NCBI RefSeq assembly: GCF_026810505.1
Contig: NZ_CP101750.1
Coordinates: 6,994,515-7,058,514 of the forward strand
Source: Streptomyces sp. Je 1-369
GTDB lineage: Bacteria > Actinomycetota > Actinomycetes > Streptomycetales > Streptomycetaceae
DNA length: 64,000 bases
Reading direction: 5' to 3'
The position numbers and the translations under genes are program-made. Each line of letters begins with the position of its first letter. Position 1 is the first letter of the stretch. Below, piece by piece: positions 5,943 through 21,732 of the stretch. The notes under the pieces were generated by a model. The model ran no database searches. It was not told the DNA's origin and saw only the letters and a program-made list of their open reading frames with translations.

Positions 5943-7619
5943 TCAGCTCATGCGCAGCGCGAGGAAGAAATCGAGCTTGTCCTCCAGGCGCGACAGGTCA
6001 CGGCCCGTCAACTGCTCGATACGGCCCACCCGGTAGCGCAACGTGTTGACGTGGAGGTGCAGCCGCGCCGCGCACCGCGTCCACGAACCGTCGCAGTCCA
6101 GGAACGCCTCAAGCGTCGGGATGAGCTCCGCGCGGTGGCGCTTGTCGTACTCGCGCAGCGGGTCGAGGAGCCGTGCCGTGAACGCCCGACGCACGTCGTC
6201 CGGCACGAACGGCAGCAGCAGCACGTGCGAGGCCAGCTCCTGGTGCCCGGCCGCGCACACCCGGCCGGGGCGCGCCGCGGCGACCCGGCGGGCGTGCCGC
6301 GCCTCCTCCAGGGCGCCGCGCAGCCCCTCCGCCGAGTGCACGGACGCGCTGACGCCGAGCGTGAGGCGGCCGTCGCCGTCCAGGCCCGCCGACAGCGGGT
6401 CGTGGACGGAGGCGAGGAGCGCGTCCGCGAGCAGACCCGTCTCCGGGCCCTCGTGCTCGCCGGAGACCGCGGGCAGCGGCACGAGGGCGATCGCCTCGTC
6501 GCCGGTGTGCGCGACGGCGATCCGGTCGGACGGCTCGGGGCCCGACGCCGCCGGGTCGACGAGGATCTCCTCCAGGAGCGACTGGGCGACGGAACCGCCG
6601 TCGATCTCCCCGCCCTCCCACTCCACCCGGGCCACCACGACCTGCCAGTGCGGAGCCGTGCCGAGACCGGGCAGCAGCACCGGGGCGGCGACGCGCAACC
6701 GGGCCGCGATCTCCGCGGGGGCGGCGCCCGTCTGCACCAGTTCCAGGACCTCCTGGGCCAGCCTGCGGCGCACCGTGCGGGCCGCGTCGCGCCGGTCGCG
6801 CTCCACCGCGATCAGCTGGGTGACGCCCTGGAGCAGGTCGAGCCGCTCCTCGGGCCAGTCGCCCGCGTCGGCCTCCACCGCGAGCACCCAGTCGGAGAGC
6901 ACGGACTCGCGCACGTCACGCGAGGCGCCGGCCGTTCCGCGCCCACTGGTCCGAATGGGGAACAGCGAGTACGTGACCGAGTCCACCGTGACGCGGTGCG
7001 GGCCGCGCCGCCCCGTCCTGACGGCCGCCAGGTGCTCCCCGGCGAGCCGCGCGCACAGCGGCGCGGGCAGGGTGTTCCCGGCCGCGCCCGACCCGGCGAT
7101 GACGCGCCCCGCGGGCGACAGGACCCAGGCCCGCAGGTCCAGGTCGGTGCCGAGCAGGTCGAGTACGACGTCGGGGCCGCCGCCCGCGGGACCCGAGGTC
7201 ATCAGGCGGCGGTGCCGGTCGACGACGGCGGCCAGGTCCCCGGCACGCTCGCCGGAGACCTGGCGCACGACGTGCTCGGTGATCGTCGCGAACGCCACGG
7301 ACTCGTTGACGGCGAAGAGCGGCAGCCGGTGCCGGGCGCAGGCCTGCACGATGTCGTCAGGGATGTCGCCCAGTTCGGCCTCACCGGCCGCCAGGGCGGC
7401 GACACCGGCGCTCGCCAGGATCCGCACGAAGGGTTCCGTGTCGGAGGCGTCGCGGCGCCAGGCGAGGCCGGTCAGGACCAGCTCGCCGCCCGCCAGATAG
7501 CGGCTGGGGTCCCGCAGGTCCGTGGTCATCACACCGCGCACGGTGCGGTCCAGCTCGTCCTCGCCGCCGAGCAGCCGCAGGCCCAGCGCGTCGGTGTCAA
7601 GGAGTGCGCGCAGCCGCAT
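5943..7619 (-). CDS. pucR: PucR-family regulator of purine catabolism
   Basis: Transcription factor of 558 residues with PucR architecture. The N-terminal purine-catabolism-regulator-like domain (about 1-125; LDTDALGLRLLGGEDELDRT and VRGVMTTDL) is followed by a long GGDEF-like/central domain. At the C-terminus is a PucR-type helix-turn-helix (about 505-555; RCAARLHLHVNTLRYRVGRI then LEDKLDFFLALRM). It is transcribed away from the xanthine dehydrogenase genes, the classic arrangement in which PucR controls the adjacent purine genes. Effector and sign of control are not visible. The start ATG is well placed at the domain boundary. Confidence 0.92.
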   Translation of the reverse strand: MRLRALLDTDALGLRLLGGEDELDRTVRGVMTTDLRDPSRYLAGGELVLTGLAWRRDASDTEPFVRILASAGVAALAAGEAELGDIPDDIVQACARHRLPLFAVNESVAFATITEHVVRQVSGERAGDLAAVVDRHRRLMTSGPAGGGPDVVLDLLGTDLDLRAWVLSPAGRVIAGSGAAGNTLPAPLCARLAGEHLAAVRTGRRGPHRVTVDSVTYSLFPIRTSGRGTAGASRDVRESVLSDWVLAVEADAGDWPEERLDLLQGVTQLIAVERDRRDAARTVRRRLAQEVLELVQTGAAPAEIAARLRVAAPVLLPGLGTAPHWQVVVARVEWEGGEIDGGSVAQSLLEEILVDPAASGPEPSDRIAVAHTGDEAIALVPLPAVSGEHEGPETGLLADALLASVHDPLSAGLDGDGRLTLGVSASVHSAEGLRGALEEARHARRVAAARPGRVCAAGHQELASHVLLLPFVPDDVRRAFTARLLDPLREYDKRHRAELIPTLEAFLDCDGSWTRCAARLHLHVNTLRYRVGRIEQLTGRDLSRLEDKLDFFLALRMS

Positions 7620-7960
7620 GGTGTCGTCGCCGCCGATCTGTCTCGAATGGTGTGTACAAACATGTGCGCTCTGTAGCGCCGGGGCCCTGTGCCGCCGTGA
7701 GTCCGGGGTTTCCGGGGGGATCCCGCGAGGTTACTGGGGCCCGTTCTTCATACGAATCTACAAGACGCACGGCTTGGCCAGCCAACTCCTTCATGGTTTC
7801 GGTGACTGACCCCATCGGACGAGCGAGCGGTGTACTTGGCCCACTCCGCGTTAACAGCACATGAACGAGCAGTCGAGGGACCAACGGCCCGAGTGGCCGG
7901 AACGGAATGCTCCCGTCCCTCGAAGCGAAAGACCCTCGATACGAACAAGAAGAGAGCCTC
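7620..7960. promoter_or_regulatory. Divergent control region between pucR and xdh genes
   Basis: A 341-base noncoding gap between divergent starts must hold both promoters. The clearest symmetric element is TTGGCCAGCCAA (7774-7785), a perfect 5-bp inverted repeat with a 2-bp spacer, suitable as an operator half-way between the genes. AT-richer stretches occur at 7642-7667 and 7748-7770. AGAAGAGAG just before 7961 is the xdh ribosome binding site. I see no purine riboswitch and no credible gene here. Confidence 0.4.
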
Positions 7961-8851
7961 ATGGACTTCCTTCGCCCCGCCAGCTGGGAGGAGGCGCTCG
8001 CCGCCAAGGCCGAGCACCCCACGGCTGTGCCGATTGCGGGTGGCACCGACGTGATGGTCGAGATCAACTTCGACCACCGCCGTCCCGAGTACCTGCTTGA
8101 CCTCAACCGCGTCGGCGACCTGCGCGAGTGGGAGGTGGGCGAGGAGACCGTCCGGCTCGGTGCCTCCGTCCCGTACACCCAGATCATGGAGGAGCTCCGC
8201 ACGGAGCTGCCCGGTCTGGCGCTCGCCTCGCACACGGTCGCCTCCCCGCAGATCCGCAACCGCGGCGGCGTCGGCGGCAACCTGGGCACCGCCTCCCCGG
8301 CCGGTGACGCCCACCCGGCCCTGCTGGCCGCCGACTGCGAGGTCGAGGTGGAGTCTGTGCGGGGCTCCCGCCTCATCCCGATCGACGAGTTCTACACCGG
8401 CGTGAAGCGCAACGCACTCGCCCCGGACGAGCTCATCAAGACCGTCCACATCAAGAAGGCGGACGGCCCGCAGCAGTACTCGAAGGTCGGCACCCGCAAC
8501 GCGATGGTCATCGCCGTGTGCGCCTTCGGCATCGCGCTGCACCCCGAGACCCGGACCGTGCGGACCGGCATCGGCTCCGCCGCCCCCACGCCCATCCGGG
8601 CGAAGGCGGCCGAGGAGTTCCTGAACGCGGCGCTCGAAGAGGGCGGCTTCTGGGACAGCAAGAAGATCATCACCCCCTCGATCGCCAAGCAGTTCGCGGA
8701 GCTCGCCTCCGGAGCCGCCAACCCGATCGACGACGTGCGCGGAACGGCGAACTACCGCCGGCACGCCGTCGGGATCATGGCCCGCCGCACGCTCGGCTGG
8801 ACCTGGGAGTCGTACCGCGGCGAGGGCCGCAGCACTGAGGGAGTCGCATAA
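7961..8851 (+). CDS. Xanthine dehydrogenase, FAD-binding subunit
   Basis: Medium (FAD) subunit of the molybdenum hydroxylase, about 296 residues, transferring electrons from the iron-sulfur subunit to NAD. The FAD-binding motif AGGTDVMVEIN is near residue 25 and the second flavin motif TVASPQIRNRGGVGGNLGT near residue 100; both match the FAD_binding_5 and CO_deh_flav_C families. ATG 7961 follows AGAAGAGAGCCTC; the longer frame from 7907 is untranslated leader. It is the first of three coupled genes; its stop overlaps the next start as TAATG. Confidence 0.95.
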   Translation: MDFLRPASWEEALAAKAEHPTAVPIAGGTDVMVEINFDHRRPEYLLDLNRVGDLREWEVGEETVRLGASVPYTQIMEELRTELPGLALASHTVASPQIRNRGGVGGNLGTASPAGDAHPALLAADCEVEVESVRGSRLIPIDEFYTGVKRNALAPDELIKTVHIKKADGPQQYSKVGTRNAMVIAVCAFGIALHPETRTVRTGIGSAAPTPIRAKAAEEFLNAALEEGGFWDSKKIITPSIAKQFAELASGAANPIDDVRGTANYRRHAVGIMARRTLGWTWESYRGEGRSTEGVA

Positions 8852-9444
8852 TGCGCGTGAACTTCACGGTCAACGGCCGAAAGCAGGAAGCCGACGACGT
8901 GTGGGAGGGCGAGTCCCTCCTGTACGTGCTGCGTGAGCGCATGGGGCTCCCGGGCTCCAAGAACGCCTGCGAGCAGGGCGAGTGCGGCTCCTGCACCGTC
9001 CGTCTCGACGGCGTACCGGTCTGTTCGTGTCTGGTCGCGGCCGGACAGGTGGAGGGCCGCGAGGTCACCACCGTCGAGGGCCTCGCCGACTACGCCAAGC
9101 ACCGTCAGGACGCCCACCCGGGCGGCGGCTGCGCCACCGGCGCCTGCGGCACGTCCCTCCAGGACGCCCAGCAGTGGAAGGCCAAGGGACAGGACTCCCA
9201 GACGGGCGAGGGCGCCGAACTCTCCCCCATCCAGCAGGCGTTCATCGACGCGGGCGCCGTCCAGTGCGGCTTCTGCACCCCCGGTCTGCTCGTCGCCGCC
9301 GACGAGCTCCTGGAGCGCAACGACATGCCGTCCGACGCGGACATCCGCGAGGCGCTCTCCGGCAACCTCTGCCGTTGCACCGGTTACGAGAAGATCCTCG
9401 ACGCGGTCCGCCTCGCCGCGGCCCGCCAGGGAGAGGTGGTCTGA
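8851..9444 (+). CDS. Xanthine dehydrogenase, 2Fe-2S subunit
   Basis: Small subunit of 197 residues carrying two 2Fe-2S clusters. The plant-ferredoxin-like cluster uses C40, C45, C48 and C60 (CEQGECGSCTVRLDG). The second, helical cluster is seen as VQCGFCTPG and NLCRCTGYEKI near the C-terminus. It is longer than the usual 155-165 residues because of a roughly 35-residue linker between the domains (about 85-125), which contains its own GGGCATGACG stretch with two extra cysteines. That insertion is common in this actinobacterial subgroup as far as I know. It overlaps the FAD subunit stop by one base and is followed two bases later by the molybdenum subunit. Confidence 0.95.
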   Translation: MRVNFTVNGRKQEADDVWEGESLLYVLRERMGLPGSKNACEQGECGSCTVRLDGVPVCSCLVAAGQVEGREVTTVEGLADYAKHRQDAHPGGGCATGACGTSLQDAQQWKAKGQDSQTGEGAELSPIQQAFIDAGAVQCGFCTPGLLVAADELLERNDMPSDADIREALSGNLCRCTGYEKILDAVRLAAARQGEVV

Positions 9445-9446
9445 TC

Positions 9447-11831
9447 ATGGCTGGTACCACTACCGGTATCCCCGCCAACGTCACCCAGGGTGCGCGGACG
9501 AAGGGCGGCGTCGGCGAGTCGATGCTGCGCCCCGACGGCACCCTGAAGGTCACCGGCGAGTTCGCCTACTCCTCGGACATGTGGCACGAGGAGATGATCT
9601 GGGGACAGGTCCTGCGCTCCACGGTCGCGCACGCCGAGATCGTCTCCATCGACACCTCCGAGGCCGTGGCCCTGTCGGGCGTCTACGCCGTCCTGACGGC
9701 CGACGACCTGCCCGCCGCGAAGAACTACGGCATGGAGTACCAGGACACCCCCGTCCTCGCGTACGGCAAGGTCCGCCACCACGGCGAGCCGGTCGCCCTC
9801 GTGGCCGCCGACCACCCGGAGACCGCGCGCCGCGCCGCCGCCAAGATCAAGATCGAGTACCGGGAACTGCCGGTCATCACGGACGAGGCGTCCGCGACCG
9901 CTCCCGACGCGATCCTGGTCCACGAGAACCGCGGCGACCACCACGCCGGGCACGTCCCGCACCCGAACATCGTGCACCGCCAGCCGATCATCCGCGGCAA
10001 CGCCGCCGAGGCCGCCAAGAAGGCCGACGTGATCGTCAAGGGCGAGTACACCTTCGGCATGCAGGACCAGGCCTTCCTCGGCCCGGAGTCCGGCCTCGCC
10101 GTGCCCTCCGAGGACGGTGGCGTCGACCTGTACGTGGCCACTCAGTGGCTGCACTCGGACCTCAAGCAGATCGCCCCCTGCCTCGGCCTGCCCGAGGAGA
10201 AGGTCCGCATGACGATGGCGGGCATCGGCGGCGCGTTCGGCGGCCGCGAGGACATCTCGATGCAGATCCTCGCCTCGGTCCTCGCCCTGCGCACCTCCAA
10301 GCCCGTCAAGATGGTCTACAACCGGTACGAGTCGTTCTTCGGCCACGTCCACCGGCACCCGGCGAAGCTCTACTACGAGCACGGCGCCACCAAGGACGGC
10401 AAGATCACGCACATGAAGTGCAAGATCGTCCTGGACGGCGGCGCCTACATGTCGTCGACGCCCTCGGTCGTCGGCAACGCCTCGTCCCTCTCGGTCGGCC
10501 CGTACGTCATCGACGACGTGGAGATCGAGGCGATCGGCCTCTACACCAACAACCCGCCCTGCGGCGCCATGCGTGGCTTCGGCGCGGTCCAGGCGTGCTT
10601 CGCCTACGAGGCGCAGATGGACAAGGTCGCCGCCAAGCTGGGCATGGACCCGGTGGCGTTCCGGCAGAAGAACGCGATGGAACAGGGCACGGTCATGCCG
10701 ACCGGGCAGCCGGTCGACTCGCCCGCCCCCGTCGCCGAGCTGCTGCGCCGCGTCAAGGCCCGCCCGCTGCCGCCCGTGCGCCAGTGGGAGTCCAGCGAGG
10801 GCGCCGACGTCCGCGCGCTGCCCGGCGGTCTGTCGAACACCACGCACGGCGAGGGCGTCGTCCGCGGCGTCGGCTACGCGGTCGGCATCAAGAACGTCGG
10901 CTTCTCCGAGGGCTTCGACGACTACTCGACCGCGAAGATCCGCATCGAGGTCATCAACGGCGAGGCCGTGGCCACCGTCCACACCGCCGCGGCCGAGGTC
11001 GGCCAGGGCGGCGTGACCATCCACGCGCAGATCGCCCGCACCGAGCTCGGTGTCCAGCAGGTCACCATCGCCCCCGCCGACACGCAGGTGGGCTCGGCGG
11101 GATCGACCTCCGCGGGCCGCCAGACGTATATGACCGGCGGCGCCATCAAGAACTCCTGCGAGATCGTCCGCGAGAAGGTCCTGGAGATCGGCCGGCGCAA
11201 GTTCGGCTCCTACCACCCGGCGTGGGCCAACGCCGAACTCCTCCTGGAGGGCGGCAAGGTCGTCACCGACGGCGGCGAGGTCCTCACCACCCTCGTGGAG
11301 GTCCTCGAGGACGAGGCGGTGGAGGTGGAGGAGGAGTTCAGGCACCGCCCCACCGAGGCCTTCGACCTGCGCACGGGACAGGGCAACGGCCACGTCCAGT
11401 ACGCCTTCGCCGCGCACCGCGCGGTGGTCGAGGTCGACACCGAGCTCGGCCTCGTCAAGGTGATCGAGCTGGCCTGCGCCCAGGACGTCGGCAAGGCGGT
11501 CAACCCGCTCTCCGTCATCGGGCAGATCCAGGGCGGCACCACGCAGGGCCTCGGCGTCGCGGTGATGGAAGAGATCATCGTCGACCCGAAGACCGCGAAG
11601 GTGCGCAACCCCTCCTTCACGGACTACCTGCTCCCGACCATCCTCGACACGCCGACCATCCCGGTCGACTACCTCGAACTGGCCGACCCGAACGCGCCGT
11701 ACGGCGTGCGTGGCATCGGCGAGGCACCGACCCTGTCGTCCACCCCGGCGGTCCTCGCGGCCATCAGGAGCGCGACGGGGCTCGAACTCAACAAGACGCC
11801 GGTGCGTCCCGAACACCTCACCGGCACGTGA
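9447..11831 (+). CDS. Xanthine dehydrogenase, molybdenum-binding subunit
   Basis: Catalytic subunit of 794 residues that oxidises hypoxanthine or xanthine at the molybdopterin centre. Recognisable motifs are GGAFGGRED (MPT-binding loop), PCGAMRGFGAVQ (the Arg/Phe substrate loop), AAAEVGQGG, and GVRGIGEAP near the C-terminus, whose Glu is the general base in the family. The start ATG 9447 lies two bases after the small-subunit stop, with GAGAGG upstream. The frame is open far upstream but would overlap the whole small subunit. Substrate preference (xanthine versus another purine) is inferred from the PucR and NCS2 neighbours. Confidence 0.95.
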   Translation: MAGTTTGIPANVTQGARTKGGVGESMLRPDGTLKVTGEFAYSSDMWHEEMIWGQVLRSTVAHAEIVSIDTSEAVALSGVYAVLTADDLPAAKNYGMEYQDTPVLAYGKVRHHGEPVALVAADHPETARRAAAKIKIEYRELPVITDEASATAPDAILVHENRGDHHAGHVPHPNIVHRQPIIRGNAAEAAKKADVIVKGEYTFGMQDQAFLGPESGLAVPSEDGGVDLYVATQWLHSDLKQIAPCLGLPEEKVRMTMAGIGGAFGGREDISMQILASVLALRTSKPVKMVYNRYESFFGHVHRHPAKLYYEHGATKDGKITHMKCKIVLDGGAYMSSTPSVVGNASSLSVGPYVIDDVEIEAIGLYTNNPPCGAMRGFGAVQACFAYEAQMDKVAAKLGMDPVAFRQKNAMEQGTVMPTGQPVDSPAPVAELLRRVKARPLPPVRQWESSEGADVRALPGGLSNTTHGEGVVRGVGYAVGIKNVGFSEGFDDYSTAKIRIEVINGEAVATVHTAAAEVGQGGVTIHAQIARTELGVQQVTIAPADTQVGSAGSTSAGRQTYMTGGAIKNSCEIVREKVLEIGRRKFGSYHPAWANAELLLEGGKVVTDGGEVLTTLVEVLEDEAVEVEEEFRHRPTEAFDLRTGQGNGHVQYAFAAHRAVVEVDTELGLVKVIELACAQDVGKAVNPLSVIGQIQGGTTQGLGVAVMEEIIVDPKTAKVRNPSFTDYLLPTILDTPTIPVDYLELADPNAPYGVRGIGEAPTLSSTPAVLAAIRSATGLELNKTPVRPEHLTGT

Positions 11832-15252: not shown

Positions 15253-16062
15253 CTAGCGGTACACCTTGCCGGGTTCGGCCTTGCCGGGGGCGAGGAGCTG
15301 GGGCACGGTCACGAAGACGTAGCCGCGCTTCTTCAGTCCGTCGATGACTCCGGGGACGGCCGGCACGGTGCCCTTGTAGATGTCGTGCAGCAGGATGATG
15401 CCGTCCCGCTCCGTCTGGTCGAGGACGCGCTTCTGGATCAGCTTGGAGTCATTGGTCGTGTAGTCCTTGGCGGTGACGGTCCACAGGACCTCCGAGAGCC
15501 CGAGCTCCTTGGAGAGCTTGTTGACGTCGTCGTTGGTGCGGCCCTGCGGCGGGCGCATCAGCGTCGGCTTCTTGCCTATGAGCTTCTCTATCGCCTTGTT
15601 GGGGCGCTCCAGCTCGCGGCGCGCCTCGTCCGCGTCGATCTTCGTCAGGATCTTGTGCGACCAGGTGTGGCTCGCGACCTCGTGGCCCTCGGCGTCCATC
15701 TGCTTCACGAGCTCGGGGTACTTCTCCATGTGGTTCTTGCCGAGCGTGAAGAACGTGGCCGGGACCTTCTCCTCCTTGAGGATCTTCAGGAGTCCGGGCG
15801 TGTTCTCGCTGGGCCCCGCGTCGAACGTCAGGGCCACGCACTTGGCCTTGCGGCAGTCGACGGTGCCGAACTTCCCCTGCTCCGCGGCCTTCGCCTCCGC
15901 GCCCGCCTTGCGCACGGTGCTCGGCGAGGTGGTGTCGAGCTTGGTGCAGCCGGTCAGCGCGAGGGCGAGGGCCGCCCCCGCCGCGAGGACGGGGGCGGTG
16001 CGACGCAACCTCTTGGCCGAGTGCGTCGTCTTGCAGGCAGATGGCTTGTTCATGGGGGGCAT
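15253..16062 (-). CDS. Lipoprotein polysaccharide deacetylase (NodB domain)
   Basis: About 269 residues. A lipoprotein signal (RRTAPVLAAGAALALALTGC) ends at a lipobox Cys, anchoring the enzyme outside the membrane. The NodB domain follows: motif 1 reads LTFDAGPSENT (canonical TFDDGP with the second Asp replaced by Ala), motif 2 HTWSH is intact, and RPPQGRTND is motif 3. Loss of one metal-binding Asp is seen in a number of actinobacterial homologues, so activity is uncertain but not excluded. ATG 16062 and 16053 are both possible. The upstream region has two TATACAC copies 13 bases apart (16071-16090), a possible operator. Likely substrate is cell-wall glycan or chitooligosaccharide. Confidence 0.88.
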   Translation of the reverse strand: MPPMNKPSACKTTHSAKRLRRTAPVLAAGAALALALTGCTKLDTTSPSTVRKAGAEAKAAEQGKFGTVDCRKAKCVALTFDAGPSENTPGLLKILKEEKVPATFFTLGKNHMEKYPELVKQMDAEGHEVASHTWSHKILTKIDADEARRELERPNKAIEKLIGKKPTLMRPPQGRTNDDVNKLSKELGLSEVLWTVTAKDYTTNDSKLIQKRVLDQTERDGIILLHDIYKGTVPAVPGVIDGLKKRGYVFVTVPQLLAPGKAEPGKVYR

Positions 16063-16148
16063 GCGCCCACTATACACAGGGCGTATACACCGCGTTCATA
16101 CTGCCTTCCGATGTCAGATACTGCCGGAAAAGCGCAGGTCGGACAGGA

Positions 16149-16700
16149 TCAGACCGGGATCACGCGGATCGAAGGGTGGATGGCCGTGTTCAGGTACAGC
16201 CGCTCCTTCTTGTTCTCCTGCTCCAGCTCCATCACGAGCCGGTACCGGTACAGGCCGGGCTTCGCCGTGCTCATCACCGTGCCCGCCCAGTAGTAGTAGA
16301 CGGGCGTGTACTTGTCCCGCATCCGGTCGGGCATCCCGTAGATCTTCAGCTCGTTGAAGATCCGCCGCTCCGCCACGTCCTCCTCGTCACCCAGCTCGGT
16401 GTCGAGGAAGACGATGTTGTTGATCTTCGGCATGGGCGGCCAGGTGCCGTCCAGGCGCTTCTCCATGTCGATCGGGCGCACGATCCAGTTGATGACCTGA
16501 CCCTGCTTGCACACCGTCTCCAGCGACGACGTGCCCTGCCCCTTGCCGCCGATGCTGTTGTCCATCATGTACATCGCGTCGCTCAGCGAACCCGTCGCCG
16601 TCGCCCGCTCCATGTTGATGAGCGTCACGATGTTGAGCTGGACCGAGTTCAGCTGACCGGGGTTCTGCTTCTCCACGCCGCTGCGCGTAGTGGTGCTCAC
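16149..16700 (-). CDS. AidA/PixA-family inclusion-body-type protein, paralogue 4
   Basis: Protein of 183 residues recognised as AidA/PixA by the N-terminal strand LNSVQLNIVTLINMERA, a central GTSSLETVCKQGQVINW (the family's G-T-x-x-L...G-x-x-I-x-W signature) and the C-terminal YYYWAGTVMSTAKPGLYRY. It is methionine-rich (11 of 183), a trait of PixA, which forms crystalline cytoplasmic inclusions in Xenorhabdus; AidA of Burkholderia is a quorum-sensing-controlled colonisation factor. There is no signal peptide. GTG 16700 follows GGAGGCACG. It is the last gene of the six-gene operon, 39 bases after paralogue 3. Function in Streptomyces is unknown. Confidence 0.85.
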   Translation of the reverse strand: MSTTTRSGVEKQNPGQLNSVQLNIVTLINMERATATGSLSDAMYMMDNSIGGKGQGTSSLETVCKQGQVINWIVRPIDMEKRLDGTWPPMPKINNIVFLDTELGDEEDVAERRIFNELKIYGMPDRMRDKYTPVYYYWAGTVMSTAKPGLYRYRLVMELEQENKKERLYLNTAIHPSIRVIPV

Positions 16701-16739
16701 CGTGCCTCCTTCGCGTACACCGTCATGACTGCCCGGTCC

Positions 16740-17165
16740 CTAGCCGACGAGGGACGACGACAGGGTGGTGGTGATCGGTTCGTCCCGCGTGCCGAGCCTG
16801 AACTTGATCTGGTACGTGATCGGACCGGCGTCCTTCTTCACCGTCCCCGTCCAGTACGCGACGTCGGTGCCGGGATACACCTTGCGCACCGGCTCGCAGA
16901 TGTCGCTGTCGATGACGATGTCGTCGATCGCGACGAACGCCTCGCACTCCAGCGCGAGACAGTTCCACAGGATCTGGTCCCCGCGCCGCGCCTTCGTCTG
17001 CAGCTCCTCGGTGCCGAACCCGGTGGAGCCGCCCGCCTTGTTCGTGTCGTACATGTACAGGTGGCCGTGCATGTTGCCGGCCGCGAGCGCGCCGACGGCG
17101 TCCACGACGGCGGTGATGGAGATCGGCCGCTTCACGGCGGCTTCCCGCCTCGGTTTGGTGGTCAT
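16740..17165 (-). CDS. AidA/PixA-family protein, paralogue 3
   Basis: The most compact and most typical member (141 residues). It opens with ISITAVVDAVGALAAGNMHG followed by LYMYDTNK, continues with GTEELQTKARRGDQILWN and ends with AYWTGTVKKDAGPITYQIKF. This is the whole AidA/PixA domain with little else, and there is no export signal. ATG 17165 has AGGAGG six bases upstream. Spacing to its neighbours is 25 and 39 bases, consistent with one transcript. It is clearly homologous to the three neighbours but strongly diverged, so these are old duplicates rather than recent copies. Confidence 0.88.
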   Translation of the reverse strand: MTTKPRREAAVKRPISITAVVDAVGALAAGNMHGHLYMYDTNKAGGSTGFGTEELQTKARRGDQILWNCLALECEAFVAIDDIVIDSDICEPVRKVYPGTDVAYWTGTVKKDAGPITYQIKFRLGTRDEPITTTLSSSLVG

Positions 17166-17190
17166 CCGTTCCTCCTCGTCCGGGGGTGGA

Positions 17191-18006
17191 TCAGGCGCCC
17201 TGGCCGGGGCGTGCGGTCGACGACGGGATGGGCAGCTGGCCGATGCCCGCCTTGGTGAAGGCGTTGCGCCGCGGCTCGTTGGTGATCTTCAGCGCCGACG
17301 CGCACGTCAGGTTCACCGGGTCCCACCGGAGTTCGCCGTTCGTCTGCACCAGCTTGTGCAGCTGGACGCGCATCATGTACGAGTACGTCCCGGGACGGGA
17401 CGTGTCGACCGTCGCCGACCAGTACCAGCCGTCGGTGACCATGTCCGGCGAGCCGTACTCCGCCGGATACATGATCTTCGAGTCCACGGCCTCGCCGTAG
17501 ATGTCGGTGATCACCGGCGCCGGGTAGCTCGCCGCGGCCGTCGCGTCCTCGGTGACGACCTGACCCATGACGTCCACGATCTTCTGTCCGGACATCCGGC
17601 CCCGGGTGCGCCGCGTCGTCTTGACCCGGGTGCCCACACTCCGCCGGATGCGGTTGAGTTCGACCTCCGCGTCGGCGCTCGGCACCGTCGACTTGGCCGC
17701 GAGCTCCTGCAGTTCGGCGAGTGCCTGCTCGTCGGTCTGCCGGGCCCGCTCGACCTCGTAGCCGCGGGGCACGGTCGGCGGGATGGAACCGAGGCTGTAC
17801 GGCAGCCAGTTGAGCACCTGCTCGCTGGCCTGGGAGCCGTCACGCCAGTAGGAGCCGTTGATCGCGGTCACCAGCTCGGCGGTCCCCTGGTTCTCGGAGC
17901 CGTGCAGCTTCATGTTGTCGAACAGATAGGTGTTGCCTTCGAGCGTGCTGGACGCGAGCGCGTTGCCCACGTCCACGAGCACGATGATCGCCAACTGTTG
18001 GGGCAT
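17191..18006 (-). CDS. AidA/PixA-family protein with internal insertion, paralogue 2
   Basis: 271 residues, nearly twice the family length. The N-terminal half (LAIIVLVDVGNALASSTLEG, NTYLFDN, GTAELVTAINGS, QVLNWLPYSLGSI) and the C-terminal half (GWYWSATVDTSRPGTYSYMM) are standard AidA/PixA. Between them, about residues 75-165, is a charged, helix-prone, Ala/Arg/Thr-rich insertion (ERARQTDEQALAELQELAAK, KTTRRTRGRMSG) that I do not recognise. Because the insertion sits between strands, it could form an external arm. Start ATG 18006; the spacing to paralogue 1 is about 50 bases. Confidence 0.82.
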   Translation of the reverse strand: MPQQLAIIVLVDVGNALASSTLEGNTYLFDNMKLHGSENQGTAELVTAINGSYWRDGSQASEQVLNWLPYSLGSIPPTVPRGYEVERARQTDEQALAELQELAAKSTVPSADAEVELNRIRRSVGTRVKTTRRTRGRMSGQKIVDVMGQVVTEDATAAASYPAPVITDIYGEAVDSKIMYPAEYGSPDMVTDGWYWSATVDTSRPGTYSYMMRVQLHKLVQTNGELRWDPVNLTCASALKITNEPRRNAFTKAGIGQLPIPSSTARPGQGA

Positions 18007-18055
18007 GATTCCGCCTTCGTCGTCGTTCCCGGCTTTGCCGTCGTCGTGGGGGCCG

Positions 18056-18529
18056 TTACTGACACATCAACGCGGGTGACTCGATGGACATGACGCTGTT
18101 GGAACCCTCGTACATCTGGAGTTCGAGGCGGTACTGGTACGGCACGCCCGGCGTCATCCAGTGCGGCACCACGCCGGTCCACACGTCGAGGTCGAGCTTG
18201 TCGCCATCGGACTCGTCCTGACCGCGGGCCTCGCCGTTCGTGGTGCCGGGCCGGCTCGTGGCGGGCCCCGACGCGGTCGCGCCGTTGTGCCCGTTGGACG
18301 GCGCGAACGAGATGTTCTTGATCTCGACCGGCGTCTGCAGGTCGAGGGCGAGCGCGGTCCAGGACACGACCTGGCCGGGCTTGACCACGGTCACGAGGTC
18401 CGCCGTGCCCTGGTGGGTGCTGTCGAACGCACTGTCGTCGACCATGCAGAGGTTGCCGTCGAGCAGCGTCTTGACGGACAGCGCACCGATGACGTCGACG
18501 ACGGCGATGATGTTCACCTGCGTTTTCAT
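18056..18529 (-). CDS. AidA/PixA-family protein, paralogue 1
   Basis: 157 residues: NIIAVVDVIGALSVKTLLDG and LCMVDDSAFDSTHQGTADLV, then KPGQVVSWTALALDL, a Gly/Ser/Asp-rich loop of about 30 residues, and VWTGVVPHWMTPGVPYQYRL near the end. All family landmarks are present. Two starts compete: ATG 18529 (preceded by AGGAGCGGT) and ATG 18544 (preceded by GGGAGTGGA and lying 8 bases from the upstream stop). I chose the first because it begins next to the family's first strand. It lies directly after the PaaK-like ligase gene. Confidence 0.86.
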   Translation of the reverse strand: MKTQVNIIAVVDVIGALSVKTLLDGNLCMVDDSAFDSTHQGTADLVTVVKPGQVVSWTALALDLQTPVEIKNISFAPSNGHNGATASGPATSRPGTTNGEARGQDESDGDKLDLDVWTGVVPHWMTPGVPYQYRLELQMYEGSNSVMSIESPALMCQ

Positions 18530-18552
18530 ACCGCTCCTGTTCATTCCACTCC

Positions 18553-20151
18553 CTAGCCGCGGTCCCGGACCAGCGGGACCTTTCCGACGGCTGTCCGCTC
18601 GATCTCCGCGGACAGCCTGGGCACGAATTTGAGCTGGAGGGTGTATCCGGTCCTCTCGATGGACGCGGCGTTGGCCTCGCCGTGGTTGAACAGCGAGAGC
18701 GCGCGCGGCAGCGCGTTCACGAACACCTGCTGGAGCCCGCACGGGCCGAGTACGGTGTCGGCGCGGTAGCTCAGCCCCATCACGTCGTCGACCGCCGCGT
18801 ACAGCGTGATCGTCTTGCCTTCGCGGTGGTTGACGAACTGGACGTCGTGCGCCACCGCGTCCAGGTCCACCACCTCCGCCGCCTTCAGCTCGTCGCGCAG
18901 CGCCGCGTAGGCCCGCGCCCCCGAGTACTGGCTGTCGTTGATGTGCAGCACGTCCCCGGTGCGGCCCGCGAACTCGAACTGCCGGGTCTTCAGACCGGGG
19001 CCGTCCGTATGGGGCCGGTGGATCATCCGGTCGCCCAGCTTCAGGCGCAGCAGCGGCGTCTCGTGCGCGTGCAGCCGCGTGACGACCAGCTCACCCTCCT
19101 CGCCCTCCGGGACCTGGCGCCCCTCCTCGTCGACGATCTCGATGAAGTGCAGGCCCGGCACCGCCGACAGATAGGGCGACGCGGCGTCCAGCTGCAGGCC
19201 GATCGTCTCCGCCTGGGTGGCGGCGAAGTAGCTGAGGATCGACAGGTTCGGATACAGCGCCTGGAGCTCCACCCGCTTGCGCTGCGGCAGTACCCCGCTG
19301 CCGTACAGGGCGACACGGAAACTGTCGCGGTACTCCTGGCGCATGCCCGCGCCGAGGTCCGCGAGGATCGCGATGCCCGCCGAGATCCCCATCAGGGCCT
19401 TGGGGCCCCGGTAGGAGAACATGTGCTCGAGCACGGGGGCCGTGACGGGTCCCGCGCCGACGTAGTTGACGCCGGGCACGTGTTGCAGCACGCCGCCGAC
19501 CATGGTGCCGCTGCTCCACATCTGGTAGTCGGCCAACGTGGTGAACAGCCACTTCGGGTCGCTGCCCGCGAGGTGACCGGCCAGCTGATAGGCCCCCATG
19601 AAGCGGCCCGCGATCTCATAGGTGTCCTTCAACTCCCGCAAGGAGTAAACGACTTCGAGCGGACGGCCGCCGCTGGTGCCGCCGCTCGCGACGATCTCGA
19701 ATTCGCCGCGGGTGAGGGGCACCACCATGCCGGGCCGGGTGTCCATGAAGAAGTCGCGCTGGACGTCCTTGTCCGACAGCGGAATGCGCTGCCACTCCTC
19801 GTACGTCGCCGGGGCGTGCCCGATGCCGGCGCCGCGCAGCCGTTCGCGCCACAGCGGGTTGAGCAGCACGGTGTTCACCAACTGCTGGAGGCGGCGGAGC
19901 ACGACCGCGTCCTGGATCTCGTGGGGGATCTCGCTGTACAGCGTCTGGCAGACCCGCTCGCACTCGCGCATCTTGCTCGCGAACGAGGGGAGCACGGTGA
20001 CGGCTTCGACGGATTCCGGCTGCAGCTCCCAGTCGGGGATGAGCCAGTTGGCCAGTTCGAGGGCGCCGCCGGGAGCCGGTGCGGGCGATGGAATGTGCGG
20101 TGTCTGCGGTGGAACATGAGGTGCCTGTGGAGCGTGAGATGTACTCAACAT
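18553..20151 (-). CDS. PaaK-like adenylate-forming ligase
   Basis: 532 residues of the ANL superfamily, closest in layout to phenylacetate-CoA ligase-like proteins; expected to activate a carboxylic acid as acyl-AMP. The phosphate-binding loop is VASGGTSGGRP (about residues 157-167). The adenine/acid region includes YFAATQAETIG. The hinge and C-terminal motifs are GEEGELVVTRL, LLRLKLGDRM and FAGRTGDVLHIND, and the end reads RTAVGKVPLVRDRG with a candidate catalytic Lys. A Pro/His-rich 30-residue leader precedes the fold. No carrier protein is encoded nearby, so the acceptor (CoA, amine or protein) is unknown. It starts 9 bases after the decarboxylase with AGAGGGGACGG before the ATG. Confidence 0.8.
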   Translation of the reverse strand: MLSTSHAPQAPHVPPQTPHIPSPAPAPGGALELANWLIPDWELQPESVEAVTVLPSFASKMRECERVCQTLYSEIPHEIQDAVVLRRLQQLVNTVLLNPLWRERLRGAGIGHAPATYEEWQRIPLSDKDVQRDFFMDTRPGMVVPLTRGEFEIVASGGTSGGRPLEVVYSLRELKDTYEIAGRFMGAYQLAGHLAGSDPKWLFTTLADYQMWSSGTMVGGVLQHVPGVNYVGAGPVTAPVLEHMFSYRGPKALMGISAGIAILADLGAGMRQEYRDSFRVALYGSGVLPQRKRVELQALYPNLSILSYFAATQAETIGLQLDAASPYLSAVPGLHFIEIVDEEGRQVPEGEEGELVVTRLHAHETPLLRLKLGDRMIHRPHTDGPGLKTRQFEFAGRTGDVLHINDSQYSGARAYAALRDELKAAEVVDLDAVAHDVQFVNHREGKTITLYAAVDDVMGLSYRADTVLGPCGLQQVFVNALPRALSLFNHGEANAASIERTGYTLQLKFVPRLSAEIERTAVGKVPLVRDRG

Positions 20152-20160
20152 CCGTCCCCT

Positions 20161-21732
20161 CTACGCTTTTCCTGTTCCCTCTTCTCCGCCGAGCAGGTCC
20201 TGAGCCGTCCTCTTGATTTCGGACAGCAGCATCCGGAAGTGCTCGCCGGTGATCTGGTGGTTCATCATGACCACGCGCAGTGCCGCCACCCCGTCGATGT
20301 TCACCTTCGAGATGAAGAAGTTCCCCTCGAATTTGATGCGGTTCCTGAGGGCGATCTGCAAATGGTGCACGTCTTTCTTCTCGAGTCGCCTGCCGAGTTT
20401 GTTTTCGAGGTCGGCCGGATGGTAGCGGAAGCACAGAATGTTCGCTTCCGGACGGTGCAGGGTCTCGAAGTCCGGATCGGCCCGTACGACGCCATAGGCT
20501 TCCTCCGTCAACTGACAGAGATACTCGATTTTCTCCGCGAAGAGGGCCCGCCCGTAAATGGCCCACAGTGCCCACAGCGTCATGATCATCGGACGCTTCG
20601 TGCACTCGAAGTTCTTTCCGCCGCTGTCGTAGGCGGTATAGACGTCCTGCTCCTCGTCGAAGACGTAGCTCGCCTTCTGCCGGAATGCCGAGAGCGCGGT
20701 CTCCTTGTTCCGGTAGAAGAGCATCGTGCAGGGCGCGGGCACGAACATCATCTTGTGCGCGTCCCAGGTCAGGGAGTCAGCCTTCTCGATGCCCCGCAGC
20801 TTGGCGCGGAGCGCGTCCGACACCAGCAGGCTCGCGCCGTGCGCGCCGTCGATGTGCAGCCAGATGTCCTTCTCGCGGGCCACCTCGGCGAGTTCGTCGA
20901 TCGGGTCGAAGGCACCCACCGAGGTGCTGCCGGCCGAGGCGACCATGCAGAACACCTTGAGGTTCTGCCGCTCGGCCGCCTCCAGGGTGGCGCGCACCTC
21001 GCCGGGGCAGATCTGCTGCTGCCGGTTGAGCGGCAGCCGGACGAGCTGCGCGTCGCCGATGCCGAGCACGCCGGCCGCCCGCGCCACGCTGTAGTGCACG
21101 TCCGCGCCGACCGCGATGGCGGGCCTCGGCTGGCCGCGGACCGCCGAACCGCCCTGTGACCAGTACCCCGGCAGCTTCTCGTTCCTGGCCGCGAGCAGCG
21201 CGGTCAGGTTGGCGAGCGAGCCGCCCGACGTGGTGAGCATGGTGAAGCGCTCCGGGTCCCACCCGATGAAGCGGTTCAGCTCGTCGGCCATGATCCGCTC
21301 CACGGCGTTGGGCAACTGGCCCGCCTCGTAGAACGAGGACGGCTGGTTGACCACGGAGCTGACGAAGTCGATGACGCCGGCGAGCGGCACGACTCCGGAG
21401 AACTGCCGCCCCATGTAACCGGGGGAGTGGACCTGGATTCCCGTACGGACGTACAGGTCGATGATGCCCGCCAGACGCTCCTCGTCGAACGCGGCGATCT
21501 TGTCGTGCTCGGTCGTCATGAGCTCTCTCGCGGCCTGGGAGAGCCTGGCCGGTTCGATCAGTTCGAGACCCCTGATCGAGATGTCCGACAGGTGTTTCTC
21601 CAGCTTGGCGAGAGCTGTTTCCGAGTTCTCCCTGAACTGCTGCGGATCAAAGGCCTCCAGCAGCAATCCGCTCCGATCCGATGTTAAGTCACTCCGTTCC
21701 GATCCGGGATCACTCGAGCGAGATTCCTTCAC
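20161..21732 (-). CDS. PLP-dependent group II decarboxylase
   Basis: 523 residues resembling aromatic-amino-acid, glutamate or diaminobutyrate decarboxylases. Visible motifs are TTSGGSLANLTALLAARN (cofactor phosphate loop), VHYSVARAAGVLGIG, ASAGSTSVGAFDPIDELAEV, HIDGAHGAS and WDAHKMMFVP, whose Lys should bind PLP. It is predicted to turn an amino acid into an amine; the substrate cannot be read from sequence. GTG 21732 is preferred for its AAGGGGGACCCTA ribosome binding site over GTG 21813. Codon 16 is TTA (21685-21687), so translation of this first operon gene should depend on bldA tRNA. It heads the six-gene operon. Confidence 0.87.
   Translation of the reverse strand: MKESRSSDPGSERSDLTSDRSGLLLEAFDPQQFRENSETALAKLEKHLSDISIRGLELIEPARLSQAARELMTTEHDKIAAFDEERLAGIIDLYVRTGIQVHSPGYMGRQFSGVVPLAGVIDFVSSVVNQPSSFYEAGQLPNAVERIMADELNRFIGWDPERFTMLTTSGGSLANLTALLAARNEKLPGYWSQGGSAVRGQPRPAIAVGADVHYSVARAAGVLGIGDAQLVRLPLNRQQQICPGEVRATLEAAERQNLKVFCMVASAGSTSVGAFDPIDELAEVAREKDIWLHIDGAHGASLLVSDALRAKLRGIEKADSLTWDAHKMMFVPAPCTMLFYRNKETALSAFRQKASYVFDEEQDVYTAYDSGGKNFECTKRPMIMTLWALWAIYGRALFAEKIEYLCQLTEEAYGVVRADPDFETLHRPEANILCFRYHPADLENKLGRRLEKKDVHHLQIALRNRIKFEGNFFISKVNIDGVAALRVVMMNHQITGEHFRMLLSEIKRTAQDLLGGEEGTGKA

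Follow-up and report, generated by a model that had tools for sequence, protein, structure and literature searches.

What brings a decarboxylase, an adenylating enzyme and four proteins of the MakCD/PixA superfamily together in one Streptomyces locus, and do these six genes form a real unit? The question was raised by a first-pass annotation of a 64,000-nucleotide stretch of Streptomyces sp. Je 1-369 (contig NZ_CP101750.1, positions 6,994,515 to 7,058,514 of the forward strand; referred to here as the window), which described a six-gene minus-strand operon joining two small-molecule enzymes with four AidA/PixA proteins. In this study, we show that the six open reading frames (ORFs), here named A to F, are present as a single minus-strand run at positions 16149-21732 of the window, and that the same genes follow one another on one strand and in the fixed order A-B-C-D-E-F in 73 of 74 loci that encode B. 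The six genes are:

20161..21732, minus strand: gene A, group II pyridoxal-phosphate (PLP)-dependent decarboxylase of the GAD/CSAD/GADL1-like group (PF00282), 523 residues, GTG start
18553..20151, minus strand: gene B, PaaK/CoF-synthetase-like adenylating enzyme, 532 residues, below every curated family cut-off
18056..18544, minus strand: gene C, MakCD/PixA-superfamily protein, slot 1, 42 bits to NF049870, likely true start ATG 18529
17191..18006, minus strand: gene D, MakCD/PixA-superfamily protein, slot 2, 271 residues, carrying a helical insert (about residues 83-160)
16740..17165, minus strand: gene E, MakCD/PixA-superfamily protein, slot 3, 141 residues, with the top MakCD score among C-F
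16149..16700, minus strand: gene F, MakCD/PixA-superfamily protein, slot 4, 183 residues, 55 bits to NF049870

The genes are separated by 9 bases (A-B), 49 (C-D), 25 (D-E) and 39 (E-F), which is close to the 9-50 bases given for them before; the B-C gap departs from that range or falls within it, at 8 or 23 bases, depending on the start codon chosen for C. The true start of C is probably the second ATG, at 18529, because most aligned orthologues begin there; our searches with C used positions 18056-18541, one residue shorter than the protein starting at the upstream ATG. The ribosome binding sites of A-F were inspected by eye only.

Loci for comparison were gathered through B. Among 7999 candidates scored, 431 B-like proteins were found at an E-value of 1e-3, and the window sequence together with 22 of the best 120 of these formed a 23-row profile, with which GTDB species genomes were scanned. 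Gene order in the resulting 74 loci (labelled L0xx) was read by profile searches of all six genes on six-frame translations. The one locus outside the count, L086, has a contig end falling inside B, and in L062 the A gene is cut by the contig start. Of the 73 ordered loci 61 are clean and four have two AB pairs, while in eight a reading frame is split or there is an additional weak match. As 73 of the 74 loci keep the full order, the six-gene run is far beyond chance, and the proposal of a single six-gene unit is borne out by this synteny. Judged from the record titles, the loci belong to Actinomycetota (49), Pseudomonadota (12), Bacteroidota (9), Acidobacteriota (1) and Chloroflexota (1), with two unassigned, and several loci of the rarer phyla come from metagenome bins.

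In the 71 loci where all six genes were called, the lowest pairwise identities are 34% for A, 40% for B and 21-28% for C-F, and the pairwise-identity matrices of all six genes correlate with Spearman coefficients of 0.82-0.94. Since the order is kept in at least five named phyla at lowest identities of 21-40%, the block is, on this comparative evidence, under selection as a unit. It is also rare, in agreement with the earlier remark that neither the PixA nor the AidA family is usually discussed in Streptomyces: among 392 genomes of the genus, the window's own included, 8 have B, and the E profile found the window's own genome as the sole match among 396 genomes of the phylum. A tree of B, built by a quick method with support from the SH-aLRT (Shimodaira–Hasegawa-like approximate likelihood ratio test) only, groups the Bacteroidota with a support of 91 and requires two changes for Actinomycetota and four for Pseudomonadota. 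This suggests that the cassette has been transferred between phyla, and does no more than suggest it, because several of the end branches are long.

Turning to the enzymes, the assignment of A as a group II PLP-dependent decarboxylase holds, with a score of 183 bits against PF00282 (cut-off 27). An alignment of 37 rows, comprising the window sequence and 36 of 77 A sequences, gave a profile whose best PDB matches are GAD67 (E 2.6e-78), GAD65, GADL1 and CSAD, which suggests that the substrate of A is an acidic amino acid. Residues H213, D295 and K327, which we take to be the PLP-contacting and Schiff-base residues with K327 as the catalytic lysine, are invariant in all 37 rows. A thus resembles the GAD/CSAD/GADL1 decarboxylases in aligning over most of its own length and in keeping what are presumably the PLP-site lysine and aspartate; it differs from them in reaching no NCBIfam equivalog cut-off (for PanP, 182 of the 606 bits required). 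For B, the PaaK-like label holds only through weak matches. The SGGT loop, E315, D374, G396-R397 and the C-terminal GK lysine K524 are invariant in the 23 rows, and we assume these to be adenylation motifs of ANL/PaaK-type enzymes; there is also a weak profile match to PDB 4r1l (E 6e-11). The SGGT loop, GR and GK motifs and this match are what B has in common with PaaK and coenzyme F390 synthetase-like enzymes. However, B does not reach the cut-off of Pfam PF00501 (16.5 bits against 29.9) or of its best NCBIfam match, the DVU_1553 AMP ligase (39 bits against 300), and it further differs from these enzymes in being accompanied by the other five genes in 73 of 73 uncut loci sampled. Because the putative catalytic residues and motifs are conserved, both A and B are likely to be active enzymes. 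It also speaks for a unit of function that A and B are naturally fused into one ORF of 1046 residues in an uncultured Kordia (L074, 8342-11482), and that in four Flavobacteriaceae loci (L072, L074, L075 and L082) a second, divergent A-B pair stands directly before the cassette.

The proteins C, D, E and F all match the NCBIfam MakCD model NF049870 (E 1e-19 to 7e-11; 42-71 bits), below its curated cut-off of 110, and so belong to one superfamily as had been proposed; by sequence, however, their nearest characterized relatives are MakC and MakD rather than AidA or PixA. The model is matched in 39 of 39 rows of C orthologues and 39 of 39 rows of F orthologues, the C profile finds MakC (8rqy) and MakD (6tct) in the PDB, and the F profile finds MakD at E 4.5e-9. 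The Pfam PixA family (PF12306) touches E alone, at 15.5 bits against a cut-off of 21, with no match to C, D or F, and for this reason the AidA/PixA label is approximate for the sequences; it is right for the fold, since models of D and E are predicted to have the PixA beta-sandwich. In each of 32 cassette genomes, a selection from the 74 loci, MakCD matches at E 1e-5 number two to four and lie on one contig within about 2.3 kb, and none in these 32 genomes exceeds the curated cut-off. With two to four matches per genome, the model overlooks one or two of the four slots in 12 genomes and finds a fifth copy in none of the 32. In a tree of the slots, made from 22 of the 73 loci and two proteins of a non-cassette locus (L107, described below) and using few columns, support is 100/99 for D, 100/97 for E, 100/96 for F and only 75/12, a weak value, for C. 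Each slot falls on one side of a branch, and therefore the four paralogues probably separated before the cassette spread.

Taken together, we favour a standalone cassette for making or activating a small molecule, in which C-F would form a cytosolic hetero-oligomer dedicated to it, and put the probability of this at roughly one half. Both the unit and the chemistry of its enzymes are well supported: A very likely decarboxylates an amino acid and B very likely activates a carboxylic acid with ATP, and there is good reason to think that both act in one pathway, the product of which is probably a small molecule and whose genes have probably moved between lineages. A product of the beta-alanine, gamma-aminobutyric acid or taurine type is a reasonable first guess for A, because its closest relatives of known structure use acidic amino acids as substrates, and B may activate either this product or an acid that becomes coupled to the amine. 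More speculatively, C-F might form MakCD-type dimers that assemble in the cytosol into a hetero-oligomer around the enzymes or their product, and might act as a dedicated scaffold, carrier or chaperone. The more specific idea that the MakCD-fold proteins build a new heteromeric assembly which houses or channels the two-enzyme pathway is, as it stands, unlikely; if true, it would make the superfamily a general partner-organizing module, coupled to pore-forming toxins in mak and to an enzyme pair in the cassette. Our literature searches found no description of the six-gene cassette, and we therefore rate it as new in kind, with its parts coming from known superfamilies. It points to an uncharted small-molecule pathway. 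For the MakCD/PixA superfamily, which is poorly understood and includes AidA of Burkholderia, the PixA of inclusions and the toxin-accessory MakC/D, it supplies a setting with enzymes that are tractable, and what these proteins do can thereby be addressed by ordinary biochemistry in a Streptomyces.

Some lineages seem to have added an aminotransferase, an amide hydrolase or an efflux pump to this pathway. Flanking ORFs were clustered by BLAST, codon usage served to call the genes closest to the cassette, and across the 74 loci no outside neighbour is fixed. The largest flank clusters (18, 15 and 15 loci) look, by eye, like ATPases of ABC transporters and like two-component proteins, whose distance and strand vary, and a two-component pair directly adjoins the cassette only in L021-L023, L027, L028 and L048. 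An isochorismatase-like cysteine hydrolase lies within 1 kb in 13 of the 74 loci, in several orientations, and a class I/II aminotransferase is inserted between B and C in three (L055, L056 and L058). The statement that no exporter is encoded is true of the window; among its relatives, a DHA2 efflux gene stands directly upstream of the cassette in three of the 74 (L077, L078 and L086), and DHA2 relatives are found further away in L030 and L034. Several loci of Streptosporangiaceae and Thermomonosporaceae also have a hydrolase of the metallo-beta-lactamase fold next to the cassette or not far from it, for example at 14239-14994 of L043. These recruited genes fit a small-molecule pathway.

Several points weigh against the reading of a standalone small-molecule cassette. 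The loci were gathered via B, so that relatives lacking A or B are undersampled, and the B tree alone is no proof of transfer between phyla. As the flanks were compared by BLAST clusters, pathway genes located elsewhere could have been overlooked, and in the window's genome the best relative of the isochorismatase-like hydrolase is 36% identical and far away. A model of an E-F read-through chain (predicted template modelling score 0.78, linker disordered) hints that E and F pack together, but it is one tethered chain without a predicted aligned error matrix and the packing is suggestive only. Lastly, MakCD-like proteins stand beside toxin-like ORFs in L107, which is not a cassette locus. It was met in the family of Filimonas (G796), where the E profile matched in 3 of 147 genomes: two carry full cassettes (the genome of L066, and L108) and the third is L107. 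At 6044-10212 of this Bacteroidota locus, two MakCD-like ORFs flank three ORFs, of which one scores above and one below the cut-off of Pfam HBL (haemolytic enterotoxin), and L107 looks like a Mak-type operon outside Vibrio. This can be set beside PMC11484084, which speaks of an exclusive presence of MakC and MakD in Vibrio cholerae and in its introduction adds V. anguillarum.

The same locus bears on the idea that C-F are chaperones or export accessories, as has been proposed for MakC and MakD, and that the protein cargo sent out of the cell is A and B or a complex of which these are part. MakC and MakD are accessory proteins of a Vibrio tripartite toxin, encoded in the V. cholerae makDCBAE operon; according to PMC11484084 they are cytosolic, and their double deletion impairs MakB and the secretion of MakA and lowers the expression of MakE. 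That these are the nearest relatives of C-F, and that L107 has MakCD-like ORFs on either side of three ORFs, two of them with HBL similarity, speaks for export. However, A and B resemble ordinary cofactor- and ATP-dependent cytosolic enzymes, none of the three ORFs of L107 is related at E 1e-3 to anything in the 74 loci (broader toxin profiles were not used), and no secretion gene was noticed among the recurrent flank clusters, which were not profile-annotated. The cassette also differs from mak in having four slots rather than two, in the helical insert of D, in scores of C-F below the NF049870 cut-off, and in its partners: where mak has alpha-pore-forming toxins, the cassette has a decarboxylase and an adenylating enzyme. 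We consider it unlikely that A and B are delivered as cargo. An extracellular role for the four proteins, as had also been raised, finds no support here, and MakC and MakD are cytosolic.

A second alternative takes C-F as PixA-like storage or crystalline inclusion proteins, with A and B being metabolic enzymes co-regulated in stationary phase. PixA of Xenorhabdus is reportedly methionine-rich, and an inclusion was among the possibilities suggested earlier. The orthologue groups of C-F contain just 1.3-3.8% methionine, and the suggestion thus retains little support, even with the higher values of the window's C (7 of 161 residues) and F (11 of 183); D has 8 of 271 and E 3 of 141. C-F differ from PixA/AidA (PF12306; PDB 4lzk and 4pib) also in missing the Pfam gathering score, and a Pfam scan of orthologues, which covered E and F, left all 39 E rows and all 39 F rows unmatched at E 0.01. 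Furthermore, two enzymes are linked to these proteins in every uncut locus sampled, and four distinct slots in a fixed order with them exceed what storage requires. A storage function is for these reasons quite unlikely.

The distribution of the cassette invites a third explanation, namely an anti-phage or antagonism system acting via a toxic or signalling small molecule. It is patchy within the genus and occurs in several phyla, and efflux or hydrolase partners could confer self-protection. It is also carried on plasmids: seven records of a plasmid collection matched B, and in the three annotated loci viewed (L091, L092 and L093, on Bradyrhizobium and Sinorhizobium plasmids) the A-F order is kept, the cysteine hydrolase follows next after F, and C-F are annotated as 'hypothetical protein' throughout; all three have transposases nearby, and two have toxin-antitoxin genes. 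Against this, PADLOC gives no match for B-F, its SspA/DndA scores for A look like generic PLP-enzyme similarity, and no relative of B was found in phage records (E 1e-10) or in viral contigs. We consider a defence function very unlikely. The Sinorhizobium plasmid locus L092 additionally contains a CVNH-domain gene at 8817-9260, about 1.4 kb before the cassette.

That C-F are regulators tuning the AB pathway from outside is highly improbable: Bnr1 of Burkholderia, a relative of PixA, is proposed in PMC9060813 to mimic DNA and thereby to affect many proteins, and C is moderately acidic (net charge -9 in 161 residues), but D, E and F of the window are near neutral (-3, -1 and 0) and it would be strange for two enzymes to have four obligatory regulators.

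The next genes near the cassette in the window encode a polysaccharide deacetylase and a polyketide_cyc2-domain protein. The deacetylase gene (15253-16077; PF01522, 144.7 bits) directly adjoins the cassette on its downstream side, and a polysaccharide deacetylase is also found downstream of the cassette in L013, L014 and L017.
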